From Alphaproteobacteria bacterium (lineage in GTDB: Bacteria; Pseudomonadota; Alphaproteobacteria; SMXQ01), in the NCBI GenBank assembly GCA_029863585.1, contig JAOTVC010000006.1:1-42825 (forward strand): 42,825 nucleotides of DNA, in the 5' to 3' direction. A program made the translations under genes and the position numbers. Numbering within the stretch: the stretch's first letter is position 1; each line of letters begins with the position of its first letter. The notes under the pieces are model-generated. The model ran no database searches. It was not told the DNA's origin and saw only the letters and a program-made list of their open reading frames with translations. Below are positions 16,014-24,346 of the stretch, one piece after another.

Positions 16014-16028
16014 TTAAAAAAATCTTAA
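16014..16028 (+). promoter_or_regulatory. Perfect CtrA-type box TTAA-N7-TTAA upstream of the methyltransferase gene
   Basis: TTAA AAAAATC TTAA(C), ending 34 nt before the ATG at 16063, in an AT-rich intergenic region. Confidence 0.65.
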
Positions 16029-16062
16029 CGCCATCAGTAACTTGGGCTATGGCGAGTAAGGT

Positions 16063-17514
16063 ATGAGAACCTACGAAGAGTTGACCGGCGCGCGGGGCAG
16101 CCGGGTGTTCTACCGGGCTGAGCGCTTCAGGGCCCGGGATTTGTTCGCGCGCACGCCGCCGCTTGTCGCCTTCGGCGACACCTATTTCCAATTGGACAAT
16201 CTCTCGATGACCGGCCTTGCGGCGACGCGCAAGGGCGGTGTGTCCTTGACCCGGCATGCCGCCGATGACGTGGCCATCATCTTCGAAGGCGACAACAAGC
16301 CGCTGTTCAGCAGCAAGGGGCGGCTCGAGCGGCTGGAACGCGATCCGGCCGCGACCCGGATCGCGCTGAGCTTTACCGGCGCGCCTTTGGACATCCCGGA
16401 ACTGGTCTGCCGCTACAACGAATCCCTGCTGCGCCGGGACCTCAACGGCGGACTCCATCATGCGGTGGAATCCGTCGCGCCCGACTACCGGAGGCATTGC
16501 GTCGACGTGCTCCATCTGTTGCGGCGTTATCGTTCCACCCTGGAGCAATTCGAGAACAACCCCGCGACTGGACCCGATCGCTCGGAATCCCTGTTCGACC
16601 TCTGTGAACAGCGCATGCTGCCCGAGTGGCGGCAGCTCTGGCGCGCGGGCAACGAACTGGTTAGGCCCCTGGTCGACGAGCCGGAATTGATGCAGGCGGC
16701 CAAGGATTATACCGAGCAGGTGCTGACGCCGGACTTCCTGGCCGGCCCGCTTTGGGACCACAGCTACCGCAAGCCGTTCGGTTATCCGGGCGATTTCCAG
16801 TTGATGGGATACGTCTACGACTGGCGGCCCCGGGGCAAGACCGTCTATGAGAAGCTGCTGGACCGTATGGGACTGGAACTGCTGGAGTGCATTGCCACGC
16901 GCATGATGATGGTGCAGCAGGAGATCGCCCATCTGGTTGCCGCCGCGGCACCGTCGCGGCGGCCGTTCCGGATCCTCAACCTGGGCTGCGGTTCCGCGCG
17001 GGAGATCAGCAACTACCTCGATCAGGCCGAACTCCCGTGTCCTGTGGAGATCACCCTGGTCGATCAGGACGAGCGGGCCCTCAGCCACGCCTATGAACAG
17101 TCTTATCCGAAGATCATGAACCGGGGCGACGGATCGTCGCTGCGCTGCCTGCAGATATCGTTCGTGGAATTCCTCAAGTTCGGCCGAATCTTCCAGTCGC
17201 TACCGCCTCAGGATTTCATCTACAGCATGGGCCTGATGGACTACTTGACATTGGACCGCGCCAGGTGCCTGGCGACGGCGATCTATGCCAAGCTCGCACC
17301 GGGGGCGCGGATGGTGATCGGCAATATCGCCGATGTGCCCGAGGGTTTGTTCTGGCCCAGCGAATTCATCAGCGACTGGAGCATGCGGTTCCGCACGGAA
17401 GCAGACCTCCTCGCCATGACCGGGGGCATTTCCGAAACGGCTCCGCGGATCGTTCCCGATCCCACCGGCAAGTTCTACCTGATCTATATCGACAAGCTCG
17501 CCGTCGTGGAATGA
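16063..17514 (+). CDS. PilZ-like domain + class I SAM-dependent methyltransferase fusion (PhcB-like, 3-hydroxypalmitate methyl ester synthase family)
   Basis: N-terminal RVFYR (RxxxR), 27 aa spacer, NLSMTG ([D/N]xSxxG); central YRKPFGYPGDFQLMGYVYD; SAM motif ILNLGCGSAREISNYLD and EITLVDQDERAL. Confidence 0.75.
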   Translation: MRTYEELTGARGSRVFYRAERFRARDLFARTPPLVAFGDTYFQLDNLSMTGLAATRKGGVSLTRHAADDVAIIFEGDNKPLFSSKGRLERLERDPAATRIALSFTGAPLDIPELVCRYNESLLRRDLNGGLHHAVESVAPDYRRHCVDVLHLLRRYRSTLEQFENNPATGPDRSESLFDLCEQRMLPEWRQLWRAGNELVRPLVDEPELMQAAKDYTEQVLTPDFLAGPLWDHSYRKPFGYPGDFQLMGYVYDWRPRGKTVYEKLLDRMGLELLECIATRMMMVQQEIAHLVAAAAPSRRPFRILNLGCGSAREISNYLDQAELPCPVEITLVDQDERALSHAYEQSYPKIMNRGDGSSLRCLQISFVEFLKFGRIFQSLPPQDFIYSMGLMDYLTLDRARCLATAIYAKLAPGARMVIGNIADVPEGLFWPSEFISDWSMRFRTEADLLAMTGGISETAPRIVPDPTGKFYLIYIDKLAVVE

Positions 17515-17536
17515 TTGTCCGCCCGCCGGGCCGGAG

Positions 17537-19066
17537 TCAGCTTCCCACATTGGAAAGATCCTGGTGCCCCTGAGCGCCGGTGGCGGCTTCTCCTGAACCT
17601 TCACCCGTATCGTTACCCGCCCCGGGATCAATCTGGTCGCCCCATTCCGCGCGGCGCCAACCCGGCAGCGTCACCGTCACCGTGGTGCCCTCGCCCAGGG
17701 TGCTCTCGATTCTTACCTCGCCTCCGTGAAGGCTCATGATGCGCTTCACGAGGGGCAGCCCGAGGCCCAGGCCTTCATGAGATCTCGCGGTAGCGCTTTC
17801 GACCTGGATGAAGGGTTCCAGCACCCGCAAGATATTTTCTTCGGCGATGCCTATTCCAGTGTCGGTGACACGGATGGAGCAGCAATCGTTTTCGTCGCTG
17901 AAGGCTGTGACGGTGATGGCACCGCCGCTGGCCGTGAATTTGACGGCGTTGCTGAGCAGGTTGATCAGTACCTGATTCATCAGCCGTTGATCGGCTTGGA
18001 CGTTGAGCTCCTCGGAAATCTTGTAGGACAGGCGAATCCCCTCCTCCGCCGCCTTGTTCCGGAACATGCGCAGGCACCCGTCGATCATTTCGCCGAGGTT
18101 GAATTTCTCCTCGATGACTTCCAGCTTGTTGGCCTCGGCGCGCGACAGATCGAGAATGTCGTTGATGATGTGCAGGAGGTGCTGGCCGCTGCGGTAGATG
18201 TCTTCCGAATAGGACTTGTAACGGTTTGACCCCAACGGGCCGAACATCTCCATCTTGAGGAACTCGGAAAATCCGATGATGGCGTTGAGCGGCGTGCGCA
18301 ATTCGTGGCTGACCACGGCAAGGAATTCACTCTTCGCGTGGTTGGCGGCTTCGGACTCGGCGAGCAGCTGCTCGGATCTTCCTTTCTCCTCAATCAGCAG
18401 GCGTGTCGAGACATAGTTGAAACGCACGTAAAGGTCCTGGATGTAGCTACCGAAAATGCCCACTCCGGTGGCCGAAATGAGAAAGAAATTGTTGCTGAGC
18501 AGCGCCGGCAGGGGAATGGGATTGAGCTTCAGCGCAACGATGTTGTATGCGGCCACCAGACAGATCGAGATCATCGCCGAGATGTGGAACTTCATGCGCG
18601 CCAGGGTCGAACCGTAAATGACGACCACCAATAGTCCGGCGTAATACGCCGCGTTCGTGGGCGGCGGTATCACGGCCGTCATGGTGATGATGCCGAGCCC
18701 GGCGGTCGACATGCCGATCCCAAGGATCAACTGGGCGTAACGCCAGAATTCCTTCCAAAGGGTGGCGGCCGCCGTCAAAAGCACCACGGGGACCACGATG
18801 CCGAAACGGATCGCCCAAACCTGATGCAGCGCACCGTCAAGCGAGAGGTAGTCCAGGACCCCGAACGCGGCGTAGAGCATGGCGCCGAGGCAGAGCGAGA
18901 GGCGGATCAGCGGCAGCGCTTTGTGGATGTCATTATAGGCGTAGGCCCGTTCGACCTTTCGGTCGCGGAACCTTAGGGTCAGCCAGGACAGGGCGAAACG
19001 GCCGGACTCCTGCTCGTTCTCTCCATCCACGCTGATATTGCCGAGATACAGCGGCATTCGGCCCAC
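17537..19066 (-). CDS. Membrane-bound sensor histidine kinase with about six N-terminal TM segments
   Basis: Six hydrophobic segments; H-box [21 protein letters not shown]-box [15 protein letters not shown]1 [12 protein letters not shown]2 [20 protein letters not shown]. Confidence 0.93.
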
Positions 19067-19138
19067 ACCATTCCCTTTCGGGTCTGGTGCGGCGCCAGAC
19101 CCGTCGGATATCCAAGCCTCAAAATAGGATTGGAACGA

Positions 19139-19153
19139 TTAAGGGTCTGTTAA
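19139..19153 (-). promoter_or_regulatory. Perfect CtrA-type box TTAA-N7-TTAA upstream of the histidine kinase gene
   Basis: TTAA GGGTCTG TTAA, 72 nt upstream of the kinase start at 19066 (minus strand). Confidence 0.6.
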
Positions 19154-19452
19154 GGCTGATCGCACCCCGGACGGGTAGGGAGGCCAAAGAAACAGAGGGA
19201 AACCCTCGAAAAATCCAGGCCGTTGCGGCGTTTTTCAGGACCGGGCCGAGCGATCCGCCGGGACGAACCGTGGGTGCCGCCCGATGTCTTGTCGAACGGG
19301 GCCGCGAGGCCCGCGCGGTCACTCCCCTGTACGGCACTGGAATGTTAACAAAAATTAAGCATAATTGCCTTGCCGAAACCGGTAGACGCGGCAGACAGTA
19401 CGCCGTGTGCCACCGTGTTGCCGCCAGCGACCAATGGGAATCAGGTTTCGAA

Positions 19453-20628
19453 ATGTCAGCGACGTTCCCCCTTGAATTCCCGGAAACCGAAAATCGGGAG
19501 CAAGGCACACCTCACACCTGGTTGACCAAGGGGGACCGGCTGGAGGTCAGTCGTCCATCGTTGATGCGTGGCCTCGCGTTGCTCGGGACCTATTTCTGCC
19601 TGTATTACGCGACCATGATCGGGGCCGTGGCGGACCTGCCGCTGGCGGCCAATTTGGTGCTTGGTTTTTTCAACGGTTACATGATCGGCATGATTTTCAT
19701 CATCGGCCATGACTGCGGGCATCGCGCCTTCGTCCCGGGCCGCGGCTTGAACTGGTGGCTCGGCAGGCTGGCATTTATCCCCTGTGCCCATTCGATCACG
19801 TTATGGGACGTGGGTCATAACAAGACCCATCACGCGCGCACCAATCTCAAGGGTTTCGATTACCCGTGGTCGCCTATGTCGAAAGAGGATTACGACGCCT
19901 GCGGCCCGTTCCGTCGGTTCCTGGAACGCGTCTACCGCAGCCCCTTTGGGCCGCTGGTCTATTACTACCCCCAGATTTGGCTCCCGCGGCTTGTGCTACC
20001 GGTGGCTCATGATTCGCGCCACGAATGGCGGCGTCACGTGTTCGATTCCGCGTTCGTCATTCTCGGTCTGATCGCGACGATCGCCGGGGTTCTGGTCCTG
20101 GGACAGTGGCTGGCGCCCGAGCGGCCGCTTTGGCTGACCTTCGTGGTGGGATGGGTGGTGCCGTTCGCCGTCTGGAACTACCTCATGGCGCTCTCGATTT
20201 ATCTTCAACACACCCATCCGCGGATACCGTGGTTCGATAACGAAGACGAATGGTCGTTCTATAACGGCAATATCCGTGGGACGACTCATGTGGAATTCCC
20301 GAAATTCACCGGACTGATGCGGAATGTCCATGAGCATCCGGCCCATCATGCGCTGCCTTCCATCCCCATCTACAAATTGGAGCAGGCGGAATCCAAGCTA
20401 TTGGATGCTTTCGGTGAAGATGTCGTCCGCTACAAATGGACGCCGGCGGCATACCTAGCCGTGACCCGAGCCTGCAAACTGTACGATTTCCGCAATCACG
20501 TCTGGACGGATTTCCAAGGCCGGCCGACCGGCGCGCGCACCTTGCCGGTGCGACTATCGGCCGCCCGGGCTGGCCGGCCCCTTCGGGTCGCCTCCGCCGA
20601 AGATCGAGCCGAAGATCGAGCCGATTGA
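19453..20628 (+). CDS. Membrane fatty acid desaturase (acyl-lipid type)
   Basis: Three histidine boxes: HDCGH, HNKTHH, HEHPAHH; multiple TM segments. Confidence 0.9.
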   Translation: MSATFPLEFPETENREQGTPHTWLTKGDRLEVSRPSLMRGLALLGTYFCLYYATMIGAVADLPLAANLVLGFFNGYMIGMIFIIGHDCGHRAFVPGRGLNWWLGRLAFIPCAHSITLWDVGHNKTHHARTNLKGFDYPWSPMSKEDYDACGPFRRFLERVYRSPFGPLVYYYPQIWLPRLVLPVAHDSRHEWRRHVFDSAFVILGLIATIAGVLVLGQWLAPERPLWLTFVVGWVVPFAVWNYLMALSIYLQHTHPRIPWFDNEDEWSFYNGNIRGTTHVEFPKFTGLMRNVHEHPAHHALPSIPIYKLEQAESKLLDAFGEDVVRYKWTPAAYLAVTRACKLYDFRNHVWTDFQGRPTGARTLPVRLSAARAGRPLRVASAEDRAEDRAD

Positions 20629-22731
20629 GGTGTCATCGGATTCGTCCGATCCCATTGCACCGCCCTGCCCGGGCGCGGGCACACTCCAGTCCCTGTCCGG
20701 TGTTTCGGCCTGCTCCGAACGGTCGCTTTGATCCGATGCTTCCGCTTTCTTCTCAGGCGCTTGGGACTTAGGCGAAGGCGCAGATGGCGGGTTGACCGCG
20801 GCCTTCGGTTGGGGCGTTGAATTGTTTCCGGAAGCGGGTCCCGGATGTTTGGCGGCACGCTTTCCGGTCGGCGATACGGGTGGACCCAGTTGCCGCCAGG
20901 GTGCGAAATCGCCCCGCGCATCGACCTTGAACATCAGGAAATCACGTCCTCCGGCACCCATCGAGTCGGTGGCGCCGGCCAGGATCACTCCGTCGTCTTC
21001 GGTCGCGAGGCCGCTGGTTGCAAGGTCGAAGCCGTCATGGCCGTAAATCTTGTCCCAAAGGACCGTGCCCTTGCCGTCGATCGCGATCAAGCGGATATCG
21101 GTGTTCTTGCGGTTGCCCCTGCCCTGGAACCCCAGGACCAGATAGCCTTTTTGGCGCGCTATGATCGACGCCACCGACAGGAAAGGGGTCCCTGTCTGGC
21201 AGGCCGCCTGGCGCACGGCGGCGACGCGGTCCGCATCGGGAACGGGGTCGTTGGCAGCTTTTTGGGCTTCTGCGATCCGCTCTCGCAGTGCCGGAACGGC
21301 GCAGATCTCGCGAGCTGCGGCCGGCAGCAGATCGCGATAGGGGATCGTCTTGAGCCATTCCTGACGCCCGTCCGGACGGGTTTTCAACAAAAGCAGGCGC
21401 TGGCCCTGGCGGCCGCCTGCGATGATCCCGCCGCCCTTGGTGGGCACCACGGTTGAATACCGGACATCGCTTTTGTCCTGGGATGGGGTCCGGTGGGCCC
21501 AGACCAGGCGGCCTTCGGAGGTCACGCGCAACAGGAAGCCCATTCCCGCCCGGGTGTCCCAGGCGGCTTGGGCCCTCGCCTCGCCGACGGCGATGATGTC
21601 GCCGTTGGGCATCGCCGCGGCGTCGGCAATGTCGTGCCAGAACCGCGTGGCATTGCCGGAATAGAAGGTCTTGCCGAGCGCCTTGCCGTCCTCGGCGAGC
21701 CGGAGCGTATAAGGCAGGCGCGCCGTCGTGCCGTCCTTGGTAACGGTTTCGGCCCCGATCGCGACGATCGTCCCTCCGGTGCTTCTCAGCACAACGGGAC
21801 CCTCGCCGTCTTTGATGCCGGCATAGGCACTGACCCACGGTTTGCCTGCATGATTGGGAATCGGCACCGCGTTCTTGTCGATCCGGACGGCAACGGCGCG
21901 TCCCCGGTAAATACCGCCCAGCAGGAAGCCGCCGCCCGGCAGCGCGGTCGCCGACCGCACGGCGCCGTCCTTGGCGGTACCGAGGATCACCCGATTCCAG
22001 GCCATCCGGCCGTCGCGATTCAACGCGATCATGCCGAGGCTCCGGCTTTCCTTGCGCTTGTTCTTCTTGTCTTCGGGCTGGTGGAAGGTGCCGGCTACCA
22101 GGATTCCGCCGCCCGCGCGGCGCGCCATGGCCCAGGCGGTGTCGTCTTTCGGCCCGCCGAAGGTGATGGCCTTCGCCTTCCAGAATTCACGGATCTTGTT
22201 TGCCCGGTCGAAAGCCGCCGAGGCCGCCGCCCAGCCGTGGCCCGCGCGTTCGCGTTCGGCGCCCCCTTGCCTCGCGGCTTTGAGGGCGCGCTCGGTATTG
22301 ATGAACAGGGTGATCGCGAGGTTGTAGTTGCGCCCCTTGCGGCCGACGGTGTTGAGGTATTCCACCAGCGAACGATAGGCCGGCTCCCAATCCTTCAACT
22401 GGTAATGCGCGTGGCCTTCGAAGAAGATCAGCTCGCCCTTGACGCCCTGGGGCAGCTTTCGCATCTCGGCAATGATGGCAAGCGTCTCTTTGGGCGTCTT
22501 GGCGCGGACCGAGGTATTGAGCTTGAGCCGCAATACATCGTAGCGCGCCGTCGGATCGAGATTGTCGGTTTGCGCGACCGACGGGCCTGGGCTTGCCAGC
22601 ACGAGGCTGGCCGCGAGTGCGACCGCCGCCGGGACCGCGCGGGGGCTCCAAGGGGCCAGCCGTGGCCGGCCGGTCGGGTGCTGTCGGGATGCGCCCTCTT
22701 TGGAAGATGCTAGACTGTGGCCGTGGATCAT
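20554..22731 (-). CDS. Secreted beta-propeller-like repeat protein with N-terminal helical region
   Basis: Signal-like segment ending SVAQ; repeats such as GGFLLGGIYRGR, GDIIAVGEARAQ, GGIIAGGRQGQRLLLLKTRPDG, GVILAGATDSMGAGGRDFLMFKVDARG. Confidence 0.75.
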   Translation of the reverse strand: MIHGHSLASSKEGASRQHPTGRPRLAPWSPRAVPAAVALAASLVLASPGPSVAQTDNLDPTARYDVLRLKLNTSVRAKTPKETLAIIAEMRKLPQGVKGELIFFEGHAHYQLKDWEPAYRSLVEYLNTVGRKGRNYNLAITLFINTERALKAARQGGAERERAGHGWAAASAAFDRANKIREFWKAKAITFGGPKDDTAWAMARRAGGGILVAGTFHQPEDKKNKRKESRSLGMIALNRDGRMAWNRVILGTAKDGAVRSATALPGGGFLLGGIYRGRAVAVRIDKNAVPIPNHAGKPWVSAYAGIKDGEGPVVLRSTGGTIVAIGAETVTKDGTTARLPYTLRLAEDGKALGKTFYSGNATRFWHDIADAAAMPNGDIIAVGEARAQAAWDTRAGMGFLLRVTSEGRLVWAHRTPSQDKSDVRYSTVVPTKGGGIIAGGRQGQRLLLLKTRPDGRQEWLKTIPYRDLLPAAAREICAVPALRERIAEAQKAANDPVPDADRVAAVRQAACQTGTPFLSVASIIARQKGYLVLGFQGRGNRKNTDIRLIAIDGKGTVLWDKIYGHDGFDLATSGLATEDDGVILAGATDSMGAGGRDFLMFKVDARGDFAPWRQLGPPVSPTGKRAAKHPGPASGNNSTPQPKAAVNPPSAPSPKSQAPEKKAEASDQSDRSEQAETPDRDWSVPAPGQGGAMGSDESDDTSIGSIFGSIFGGGDPKGPASPGGR
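20596..20624. repeat. 12-bp tandem repeat (GCCGAAGATCGA) in the tail-to-tail overlap of two genes
   Basis: GCCGAAGATCGA GCCGAAGATCGA GCCGA; encodes AEDRAEDRAD* (+) and SIFGSIFGG (-). Confidence 0.75.
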
Positions 22732-22766
22732 GGCGCAAGAATAATCATCCTTGGATTTGGCGCAAG

Positions 22767-23276
22767 ATGCTGGATGCGCCCGGCGGGCCGGATGTGGGCG
22801 GCGCCCCCATGATCGGTGCGACCAATGATCTGCCGCGAATCGGCGGCGCCTACGCCCTGTTGATCGAAACCCGAAGTCCGGCCGCCATCGTGCTTCGCGG
22901 TGTCTCCTTTGGGCTCGAACCCGGGGAATACCTTTATTGCGGCAGTGCCCGGGGGCCCGGGGGAATCCGGGCCCGGGTCGGCCGCCATGCGAGAAAGAAA
23001 AAGGCGCTGCGTTGGCATATCGACCGCTTGACCGGGATCGGCCGTGTCCGGGGCGTCATCATTGCGCCGGGCGGTACGGAGTGCGCCTTGTTCGCGCGGT
23101 TCGCGGCGTTTGAAGGCGCGGTGGTTCCGGCGCCCGGCTTCGGGTCCAGCGATTGCCGGCACTGCCCCTCGCACCTGTTGCGGATCGACGGCCTGATCGC
23201 GAACGCCAGAGAGTTGCCCTTGGAACCGTCGGAAAACTTGGTGCTGGGTGCCGGAAACAGCCGGGCGGCTACCTAG
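22767..23276 (+). CDS. DUF123 GIY-YIG-type nuclease family protein
   Basis: GGAYALLIE...GEYLYCGSARGPGGIRARVGRHARKKKALRWHIDRLT...FGSSDCRHCPSHLLRI; start at 22767 or 22809. Confidence 0.85.
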   Translation: MLDAPGGPDVGGAPMIGATNDLPRIGGAYALLIETRSPAAIVLRGVSFGLEPGEYLYCGSARGPGGIRARVGRHARKKKALRWHIDRLTGIGRVRGVIIAPGGTECALFARFAAFEGAVVPAPGFGSSDCRHCPSHLLRIDGLIANARELPLEPSENLVLGAGNSRAAT

Positions 23277-23692
23277 GTTCCCTTCGCGGTTGCCTCTGCT
23301 TTCTCCGCGTGTCGGCCCATCCGGGCAACCAGGTCGTCGAGCTCTTGCAGAAACTTCTCAATTGCCGGGTTGGGCGATTGGATGGACGCGCCGAGGCATA
23401 GCCTCATGCAGGCGAGATGGACCTTGGCGGCATCGGGGAAATGTGCCTCATCTCCGGTCTTGAGGGCGGCGTCAAGGGAGCGGGCAACCAGGCCGATGAT
23501 GGGCCAGCCGCAGGTCCCGGCCTGGCCCTTCAGGTCATGGGCCGCGACATGCAGAGCGTCCCAGTTTTCCGCCGCCGCAAGCGCGGCCATCTCGGTGAAT
23601 GTCGCTTCCAAGTGTTTCGGGTAATCGGCGAACACGGATTCCAGCATGGCGTCGGCCCGGGCAATCGCTTGGTCGCGTGTCATCGGGGGCAT
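23273..23692 (-). CDS. Histidine phosphotransfer (Hpt) domain protein
   Basis: HVAAHDLKGQAGTCGWPIIGLVARSLD: Hpt HxxKG motif in an all-helical 139-aa protein. Confidence 0.85.
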   Translation of the reverse strand: MPPMTRDQAIARADAMLESVFADYPKHLEATFTEMAALAAAENWDALHVAAHDLKGQAGTCGWPIIGLVARSLDAALKTGDEAHFPDAAKVHLACMRLCLGASIQSPNPAIEKFLQELDDLVARMGRHAEKAEATAKGT

Positions 23693-23700
23693 GGCGGTCC

Positions 23701-24264
23701 TCAGGAGGAAAGAAGGCTGTCGATGTCGTTTTGCCGAAGGCCCTTATTCATTCGCCGCTCTATCCCGTCATATTTCACGTTGCCCCGGCGCCTGCGGCAG
23801 GGACCCGTGTAGCCCGGCGTGATGATGAAGGGCCGCGGTTTGAAGATCGCGGCTTCCAGCTTGTCGAAGAGCGACTTGGGGGACAGCGGCTTGGTTAGAA
23901 CCTCTGATACACCGGCATCGCGTCCCTCCTCCACCCGGTCCCGATCGGTATGCCCGGTGCACAGGATGAGCGGGATATCGGGCTTGGGGCTCTGGGGGCT
24001 CGTCCGGACCATCAGGACAAACTCGATTCCACTCATCCCCGGCATCAGCCAATCGACAATCAGGCAGTCGACGCGGGACAGGCGAATCTTTTGAAAGGCG
24101 TCTTTCGCGTTGTTGGCATGAAAGATTGTGCCGACATCGAACGCGCGGAGCATATGCCCGATCAACTGACGCATGTACTGGTCGTCGTCAACCACCAGAA
24201 CCGCAACTTCTCCGAAATCCACGGCTTCTTCAGGCACGTCTACTCCTCCCGACCGGCGATGCAT
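23701..24264 (-). CDS. CheY-like response regulator with C-terminal extension ending LRQNDIDSLLSS
   Basis: VAVLVVDDDQYMRQLIGHML, DCLIVDWLMPGMSGIEFV phospho-acceptor region, LTKPLSP; C-terminal YTGPCRRRR tail. Confidence 0.92.
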   Translation of the reverse strand: MHRRSGGVDVPEEAVDFGEVAVLVVDDDQYMRQLIGHMLRAFDVGTIFHANNAKDAFQKIRLSRVDCLIVDWLMPGMSGIEFVLMVRTSPQSPKPDIPLILCTGHTDRDRVEEGRDAGVSEVLTKPLSPKSLFDKLEAAIFKPRPFIITPGYTGPCRRRRGNVKYDGIERRMNKGLRQNDIDSLLSS

Positions 24265-24331
24265 CCGGAGGCATTCGGGGCCTGGCCACCGGGATTAAAA
24301 TAAATGTTATTACCTAGATATATAAGAGTAA

Positions 24332-24346
24332 TTACCCATCGGTTAA
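24332..24346. promoter_or_regulatory. Near-consensus CtrA-type box (TTAC-N7-TTAA) between response regulator and FrnE-like gene
   Basis: TTAC CCATCGG TTAA(CC), one mismatch from TTAA-N7-TTAA, about 67 nt upstream of the regulator start. Confidence 0.35.

Follow-up and report, generated by a model that had tools for sequence, protein, structure and literature searches.

Do the methyltransferase and sensor kinase genes on this alphaproteobacterial contig form a signalling system of their own, and which of their neighbours belong to it? The window, i.e. the whole stretch of DNA analysed (42,825 nucleotides of contig JAOTVC010000006.1), carries two adjacent genes encoding an S-adenosylmethionine (SAM) dependent methyltransferase (MT) and a sensor histidine kinase (HK). 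From sequence comparisons we consider it probable, on balance, that MT and HK constitute a lipid-signal synthase/sensor module of common descent with PhcB and the PhcS sensor, and hence an undescribed relative of the Phc system. The following features of the pair were distinguished:

16063..17514, + strand: PhcB-related SAM methyltransferase (MT; 483 amino acids), recognized by family matches in homologues, hhalign to PhcB-type proteins and a class I methyltransferase fold.
16102..16383, + strand: PilZ-like domain of MT (residues ~14-107; R18, R21 and [D/N]xSxxG at 46-51), recognized by Pfam matches of homologues, motif conservation and model strands.
16771..16794, + strand: KPxGYxGD signature of MT (residues 237-244), invariant or nearly so, and KPLGYAGD in the aligned PhcB-type proteins.
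17515..17536, no strand: gap of 22 nt between the convergent MT and HK stop codons, from the gene coordinates of the window.
17537..19066, - strand: sensor histidine kinase (HK; 509 amino acids), a PhcS-like sensor with six transmembrane (6-TM) helices followed by HisKA/HATPase_c, recognized by Pfam, hhalign and a model.
18305..18307, - strand: codon of the predicted phospho-acceptor His254 (SHELRTP) of HK, invariant in alignments.

The convergent arrangement and the 22-nt spacing agree with the initial annotation of this DNA. The start codon of HK is GTG at 19066 or, alternatively, ATG at 19057. The genome of the window is a fragmented assembly (383 contigs, ~7% contamination); the conservation of the MT-HK pair described below is independent of its quality.

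Two samples were used: (i) a near-relative set of 61 genomes (the window's own and 60 relatives), and (ii) a wide scan covering 85,488 species, with one genome per species, which yielded 268 MT relatives, the best 80 of which were studied. Within the near-relative set MT is present in 10 genomes, in nine of which an HK homologue directly adjoins it and converges with it; the tenth, G005, has its kinase split by a contig break, and the kinase end adjoins MT in L013. The alphaproteobacterial tally comprised 76 loci (L022-L101 minus eight from other phyla, plus the window, L014, L016 and L020). HK was convergent with MT in 67 of these, on the same strand in one, missing from five and cut off in three, which amounts to 67 of the 73 assessable loci, and the median distance between the stop codons of the 67 convergent homologous pairs was 22 nt. 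When lineages were defined as clusters of MT at 60% identity, HK was paired with MT in 22 of 23. The automatic tally gave 21/22 (and 8/20 for FadL, see below) with the whole cluster holding L093 dropped; this cluster (paired, with FadL and one desaturase) was restored manually, yielding 22/23 and 9/21. L093 is a contig of a metagenome-assembled genome labelled Blastocatellia that groups with alphaproteobacterial proteins, and it was treated as a probable misbinning. Genes flanking the pair are common to narrow groups only.

Since the kinase core of HK matches dozens of kinases per genome, core matches were rejected as evidence of orthology and the sensor domain was used instead to assess co-occurrence. 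The domain was strongly matched in 10 of 10 MT-positive and 1 of 51 MT-negative relatives (Fisher p 1.2e-10), the only MT-negative genome with a strong match (G007) having a truncated kinase. This co-occurrence, together with the pairing, indicates that MT and HK have been gained and lost together, and their linkage is far beyond chance. The neighbourhood analysis that had been named beforehand as a test thus came out in favour of a conserved methyltransferase-kinase linkage. That MT, HK and the neighbouring desaturase are functionally unrelated genes lying together by accident is highly improbable; most relatives, including members of the same genus, have the pair with no desaturase adjoining it, as chance would predict, but conservation across 22 lineages and co-loss exclude this explanation for the pair itself.

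With the window MT alone, Pfam and NCBIfam searches returned no named family, and a PDB sequence search matched nothing genuine. Its relationship became apparent in profile comparisons, for which the PhcB- and PhcS-type proteins were taken from genomes with a phcBSRQ-like layout, not from Ralstonia records; the order phcB-phcS-phcR-phcQ is that described by PMC8578825. Aligned by hhalign, MT matched the PhcB-type profile over 388 columns (probability 99.9, E 8.6e-37), at an identity to PhcB-type proteins of only ~25-28%. Six genomes from another class of the same phylum have MT relatives in clusters composed of a methyltransferase, a multi-TM kinase, a receiver-kinase and a receiver, complete in five of the six. 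A quick tree of MT relatives (with long branches and unsure placements) grouped the PhcB-type proteins in a clade distant from the alphaproteobacterial ones, and five proteins of Acidobacteria/Verrucomicrobia, from same-strand kinase/receiver clusters, in another. In plasmid records relatives were weak and partial only. One of these records, of Enterobacter ludwigii (NZ_CP134637.1:46599-47450), has a PhcB-like methyltransferase stretch inside a gene annotated as a type I polyketide synthase.

HK matched the Pfam families HisKA (3.6e-21) and HATPase_c (4.1e-28), and its AlphaFold model places six membrane helices ahead of HisKA; simple hydropathy detects four strong helices only. A Foldseek search with this model listed kinase cores only and nothing for the sensor. 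The sensor domain was aligned by hhalign with that of PhcS-type proteins (93.8-96.1%, ~158 columns, E 2e-7), whereas five unrelated membrane-domain controls reached at most 1.3%. Both halves of the comparison with phcB/phcS drawn in the initial annotation were thereby borne out. Weak sensor-domain matches in G011 and G017 correspond to a similar membrane domain fused to adenylate/guanylate cyclase domains; such 6-TM relatives with a cyclase (L162:4491-5774 and L163:2126-3439) matched the HK sensor set at 98.8% in hhalign.

The N-terminal part of MT did not match Pfam PilZ at E<=5 in the window protein; the family (PF07238) was matched by 6 of 10 homologues, at best with 1.6e-4. Of 79 homologues, 75-78 conserve R18, R21 and [D/N]46-x-S48-x-x-G51; the arginine pair is spaced RxxR, not exactly RxxxR, while [D/N]xSxxG is retained. 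In the structural model (predicted local distance difference test score 87.5), strands at residues 34-104 precede helices and the class I methyltransferase fold. The conserved [D/N]xSxxG motif suggests that cyclic di-GMP (c-di-GMP) may control MT. An N-terminal domain is likewise present in PhcB-type proteins; it has no Pfam PilZ match, and its later part can be aligned with the PilZ-like region of MT. Of the traits by which the locus had been set apart from phcBSR, gene order holds, and the PilZ domain does so only in part, because the PhcB-type N-terminal domain aligns with it.

Compared with the same-genus locus L020, the sensor half of HK is 59% and its kinase half 91% identical, and the MT piece is 54% identical, against 75-85% for neighbouring genes. 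Fastest divergence of sensor and MT would be expected if both track a changing signal; sensor domains of kinases often evolve fast anyway.

Which neighbours belong to the module was judged from gene order. Two signalling genes had been noted in the vicinity, and both are present, ~4.2 kb from HK:

23273..23692, - strand: Hpt protein (Pfam 5.2e-9), outside the module, kept in G002/G003 where the module is missing.
23701..24264, - strand: CheY-like response regulator (RR; Pfam 2.4e-23), outside the module by synteny, likewise kept in G002/G003.

The initial annotation had envisaged a larger circuit, with HK signalling through these two proteins. Such a circuit would accord with the presence of Hpt, RR, a DUF123 gene and a gene for a 725-amino-acid protein on the same side of HK in both the window and L020 (75-85% identity), and with a distant relative of RR placed directly after the kinase in L078, and there only. 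Yet the same-genus genome G003 has the block glyoxalase, 725-amino-acid gene, DUF123 gene, Hpt, RR, DsbA and Mfd with conserved flanks and with MT, HK and desaturase all missing between glyoxalase and the 725-amino-acid gene; in G002, of the same genus, Hpt and RR are likewise kept in the block and MT and the kinase are missing. Hpt and RR are therefore independent of the pair. They also lie away from it in most other families. Both were rejected as module partners, and we regard signalling of HK through them as very unlikely. The 725-amino-acid protein (window positions 20554-22731) has no Pfam family and is conserved within the genus next to DUF123-Hpt-RR. In G007, a kinase remnant with a stop (L160:8485-9150) adjoins a 724-amino-acid gene in place of the 725-amino-acid one.

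Nearer to HK lies the third gene that had been assigned to the circuit:

19453..20628, + strand: FA_desaturase-family protein, divergent from HK (PF00487, 3.2e-25).

Its likely start is the ATG at 19453, 386 nt from that of HK, and membership in FA_desaturase is indicated by both the PF00487 match and three His boxes (HDCGH, 19708-19722; HNKTHH, 19816-19833; HPAHH, 20335-20349), so that its description as a divergent three-histidine-box desaturase was correct. The same-genus genome G001 (L020) has MT and HK and no desaturase between HK and the 725-amino-acid gene. A desaturase was accordingly rejected as a core part and kept as a lineage-specific accessory. Desaturases recur elsewhere: FadL is followed by one in L036, L046 and L051 and by the start of one in L039, L042 has a desaturase 49% identical to that of the window, and L101 has two. 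A desaturase lies by the module in four lineages against ~0.15 expected (P ~2e-5), a rough statistic with a background from ten genomes and lineages that are partly dependent. Relatives of cyclopropane-fatty-acid synthase occur beside MT in L094 and L099. Acyl-modifying enzymes are thus recurrent accessories of the pair. The inclusion of a desaturase in the circuit gained statistical support in four lineages and failed as regards the core; its proposed role in tailoring the acyl chain is moderately supported by the recurrence, again for an accessory. In G014, tandem desaturases (L142:4701-6998), one window-type (49% identical) and one L036-type, lie on a contig other than that of the module and FadL.

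After MT and HK themselves, the commonest gene family near the pair is the FadL/TodX outer-membrane porin (Pfam 1.9e-92). It adjoins HK in 27 loci (22 divergent from HK, four on the HK strand and one in the same-strand cluster of L078) and in 9 of 21 assessable lineages, against ~0.06 expected from the density of FadL in ten carrier genomes. In the genomes G005, G014 and G020 no FadL other than the one beside HK was found. In the window the place held by FadL in relatives is occupied by the desaturase. The only FadL of the window's genome and that of its congener G001 lie directly upstream of another multi-TM, CckA-like kinase (L140:5486-8420 and L141:1-2691). An MMPL-family transporter is encoded directly upstream of MT in the Parvibaculum/Rhodobiaceae group (L014:6219-8543 and similar loci) and near MT in L025 and L089. 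Both partners, FadL and MMPL, were absent from the earlier picture of the locus and are newly recognized here. L078:3-9623 contains, on one strand, a second membrane histidine kinase, a BioF/LqsA-type synthase dependent on pyridoxal phosphate (PLP), an OmpW protein, FadL, MT, kinase and RR, with two autoinducer-type synthases thus side by side.

The module probably works like Phc. With SAM, MT would produce a signal that is hydrophobic and probably a fatty-acid methyl ester; c-di-GMP may gate MT via its PilZ-like domain. Having left the cell, the signal would re-cross the outer membrane via FadL, encoded elsewhere in the genome of the window, to be sensed by the inner-membrane 6-TM domain of HK. 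The kinase would then autophosphorylate at His254 and pass the phosphate to an RR encoded elsewhere, and the window desaturase may modify acyl chains, either in the signal or in the membrane.

Several points weigh against this proposal: (i) the kinase cores differ, with the H-box HELRTP in HK and HEVNNP in PhcS-type proteins (best core models DivJ/LuxQ-type and EspC/AtoS, respectively), and the likeness to PhcS is thus limited to the sensor half of HK; (ii) the distant homology of MT would not by itself fix the substrate; (iii) the 6-TM domain has relatives on cyclases as well and hence need not be a receptor of a signal ester; (iv) in the window's genome, where the only copy (L140) is on another contig next to the CckA-like kinase, FadL does not adjoin the pair, and the same is true of 12 of the 21 assessable lineages; and (v) the module has no dedicated response regulator.

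The main rival is a circuit of lipid homeostasis in place of cell-cell signalling, in which HK detects fatty acids, either of the membrane or imported, and controls FadL, the desaturase and the cyclopropane synthase, while MT modifies intracellular free fatty acids. FadL, desaturases, cyclopropane synthase and MMPL are, indeed, ordinary genes of lipid metabolism too, and DesK, a kinase regulating a desaturase, is likewise a multi-TM sensor. On the other hand, the PhcB/PhcS pair, to which this one is homologous, serves quorum sensing (PMC8578825, PMC11960443). Moreover, what co-occurs strictly with the kinase is, invariably, a PhcB-related methyltransferase, and we consider lipid homeostasis a possible but unlikely account of the pair.

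To our knowledge, a single system of fatty-acid-methyl-ester quorum sensing, a betaproteobacterial one, is known. If the synthase/sensor reading of MT and HK is true, this type of communication extends to many mostly uncultured Alphaproteobacteria, the tie to FadL hints at a route for a hydrophobic signal across the outer membrane, and the PilZ domain suggests a direct input of c-di-GMP into signal synthesis. The cultured genera Sneathiella, Rhodovibrio and Ferruginivarius are among the carriers, which makes the module open to testing. More speculatively, and in our estimate improbably in so complete a form, there may be an undescribed quorum-sensing family widespread among Alphaproteobacteria: a PilZ-methyltransferase gated by c-di-GMP would synthesize a long-chain lipid methyl ester, FadL would bring it back across the outer membrane, a PhcS-like sensor joined to another kinase core would detect it, and desaturases or cyclopropane synthases particular to each lineage would individualize the signal. 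A literature search, with subscription journals mostly outside its range, returned no report of the alphaproteobacterial module, nor of FadL joined to such a system.

Among known systems, four invite comparison. The alpha-hydroxyketone systems Lqs/Cqs also combine an autoinducer synthase with a membrane histidine kinase, but their synthase is a PLP enzyme unrelated to MT, and one locus (L078) has both kinds. In rhizobia, FadL mediates the uptake of long-chain N-acyl-homoserine lactones (AHLs), according to passages of PMC9938287, and the likeness lies in FadL-assisted entry of a long-chain lipid signal; the signals are AHLs, however, and in those passages FadL is not tied to a methyltransferase-kinase pair. 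The PhcB-like loci of Acidobacteria/Verrucomicrobia (L095-L100) encode an MT 30-34% identical to that of the window, flanked by kinases and receivers, but are arranged on the same strand, with a fused kinase-receiver-kinase protein and a receiver-kinase protein and with no sensor kinase of the window type.

The closest counterpart is PhcBSRQ of Ralstonia, Cupriavidus and other Betaproteobacteria, within which a survey (PMC10653808) describes the occurrence of phc clusters as restricted. The two share a homologous methyltransferase with KPxGYxGD, a homologous sensor, and adjacent genes for synthase and sensor. PhcBSRQ, characterized also by the 3-OH fatty-acid methyl ester that it makes and senses, is encoded by one co-directional operon, whereas the alphaproteobacterial pair is convergent; phcR (receiver and kinase) and phcQ (receiver), present in L132-L136, are lacking next to the pair both in the window and in the alphaproteobacterial loci. 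The alphaproteobacterial module has, in turn, a recognizable PilZ-like domain keeping [D/N]xSxxG, and FadL, MMPL and desaturase neighbours. Given the homology on the one hand, and the other kinase core, the convergent genes and the lack of phcR and phcQ on the other, the module is best described as related to Phc, not as a member of phcBSRQ.

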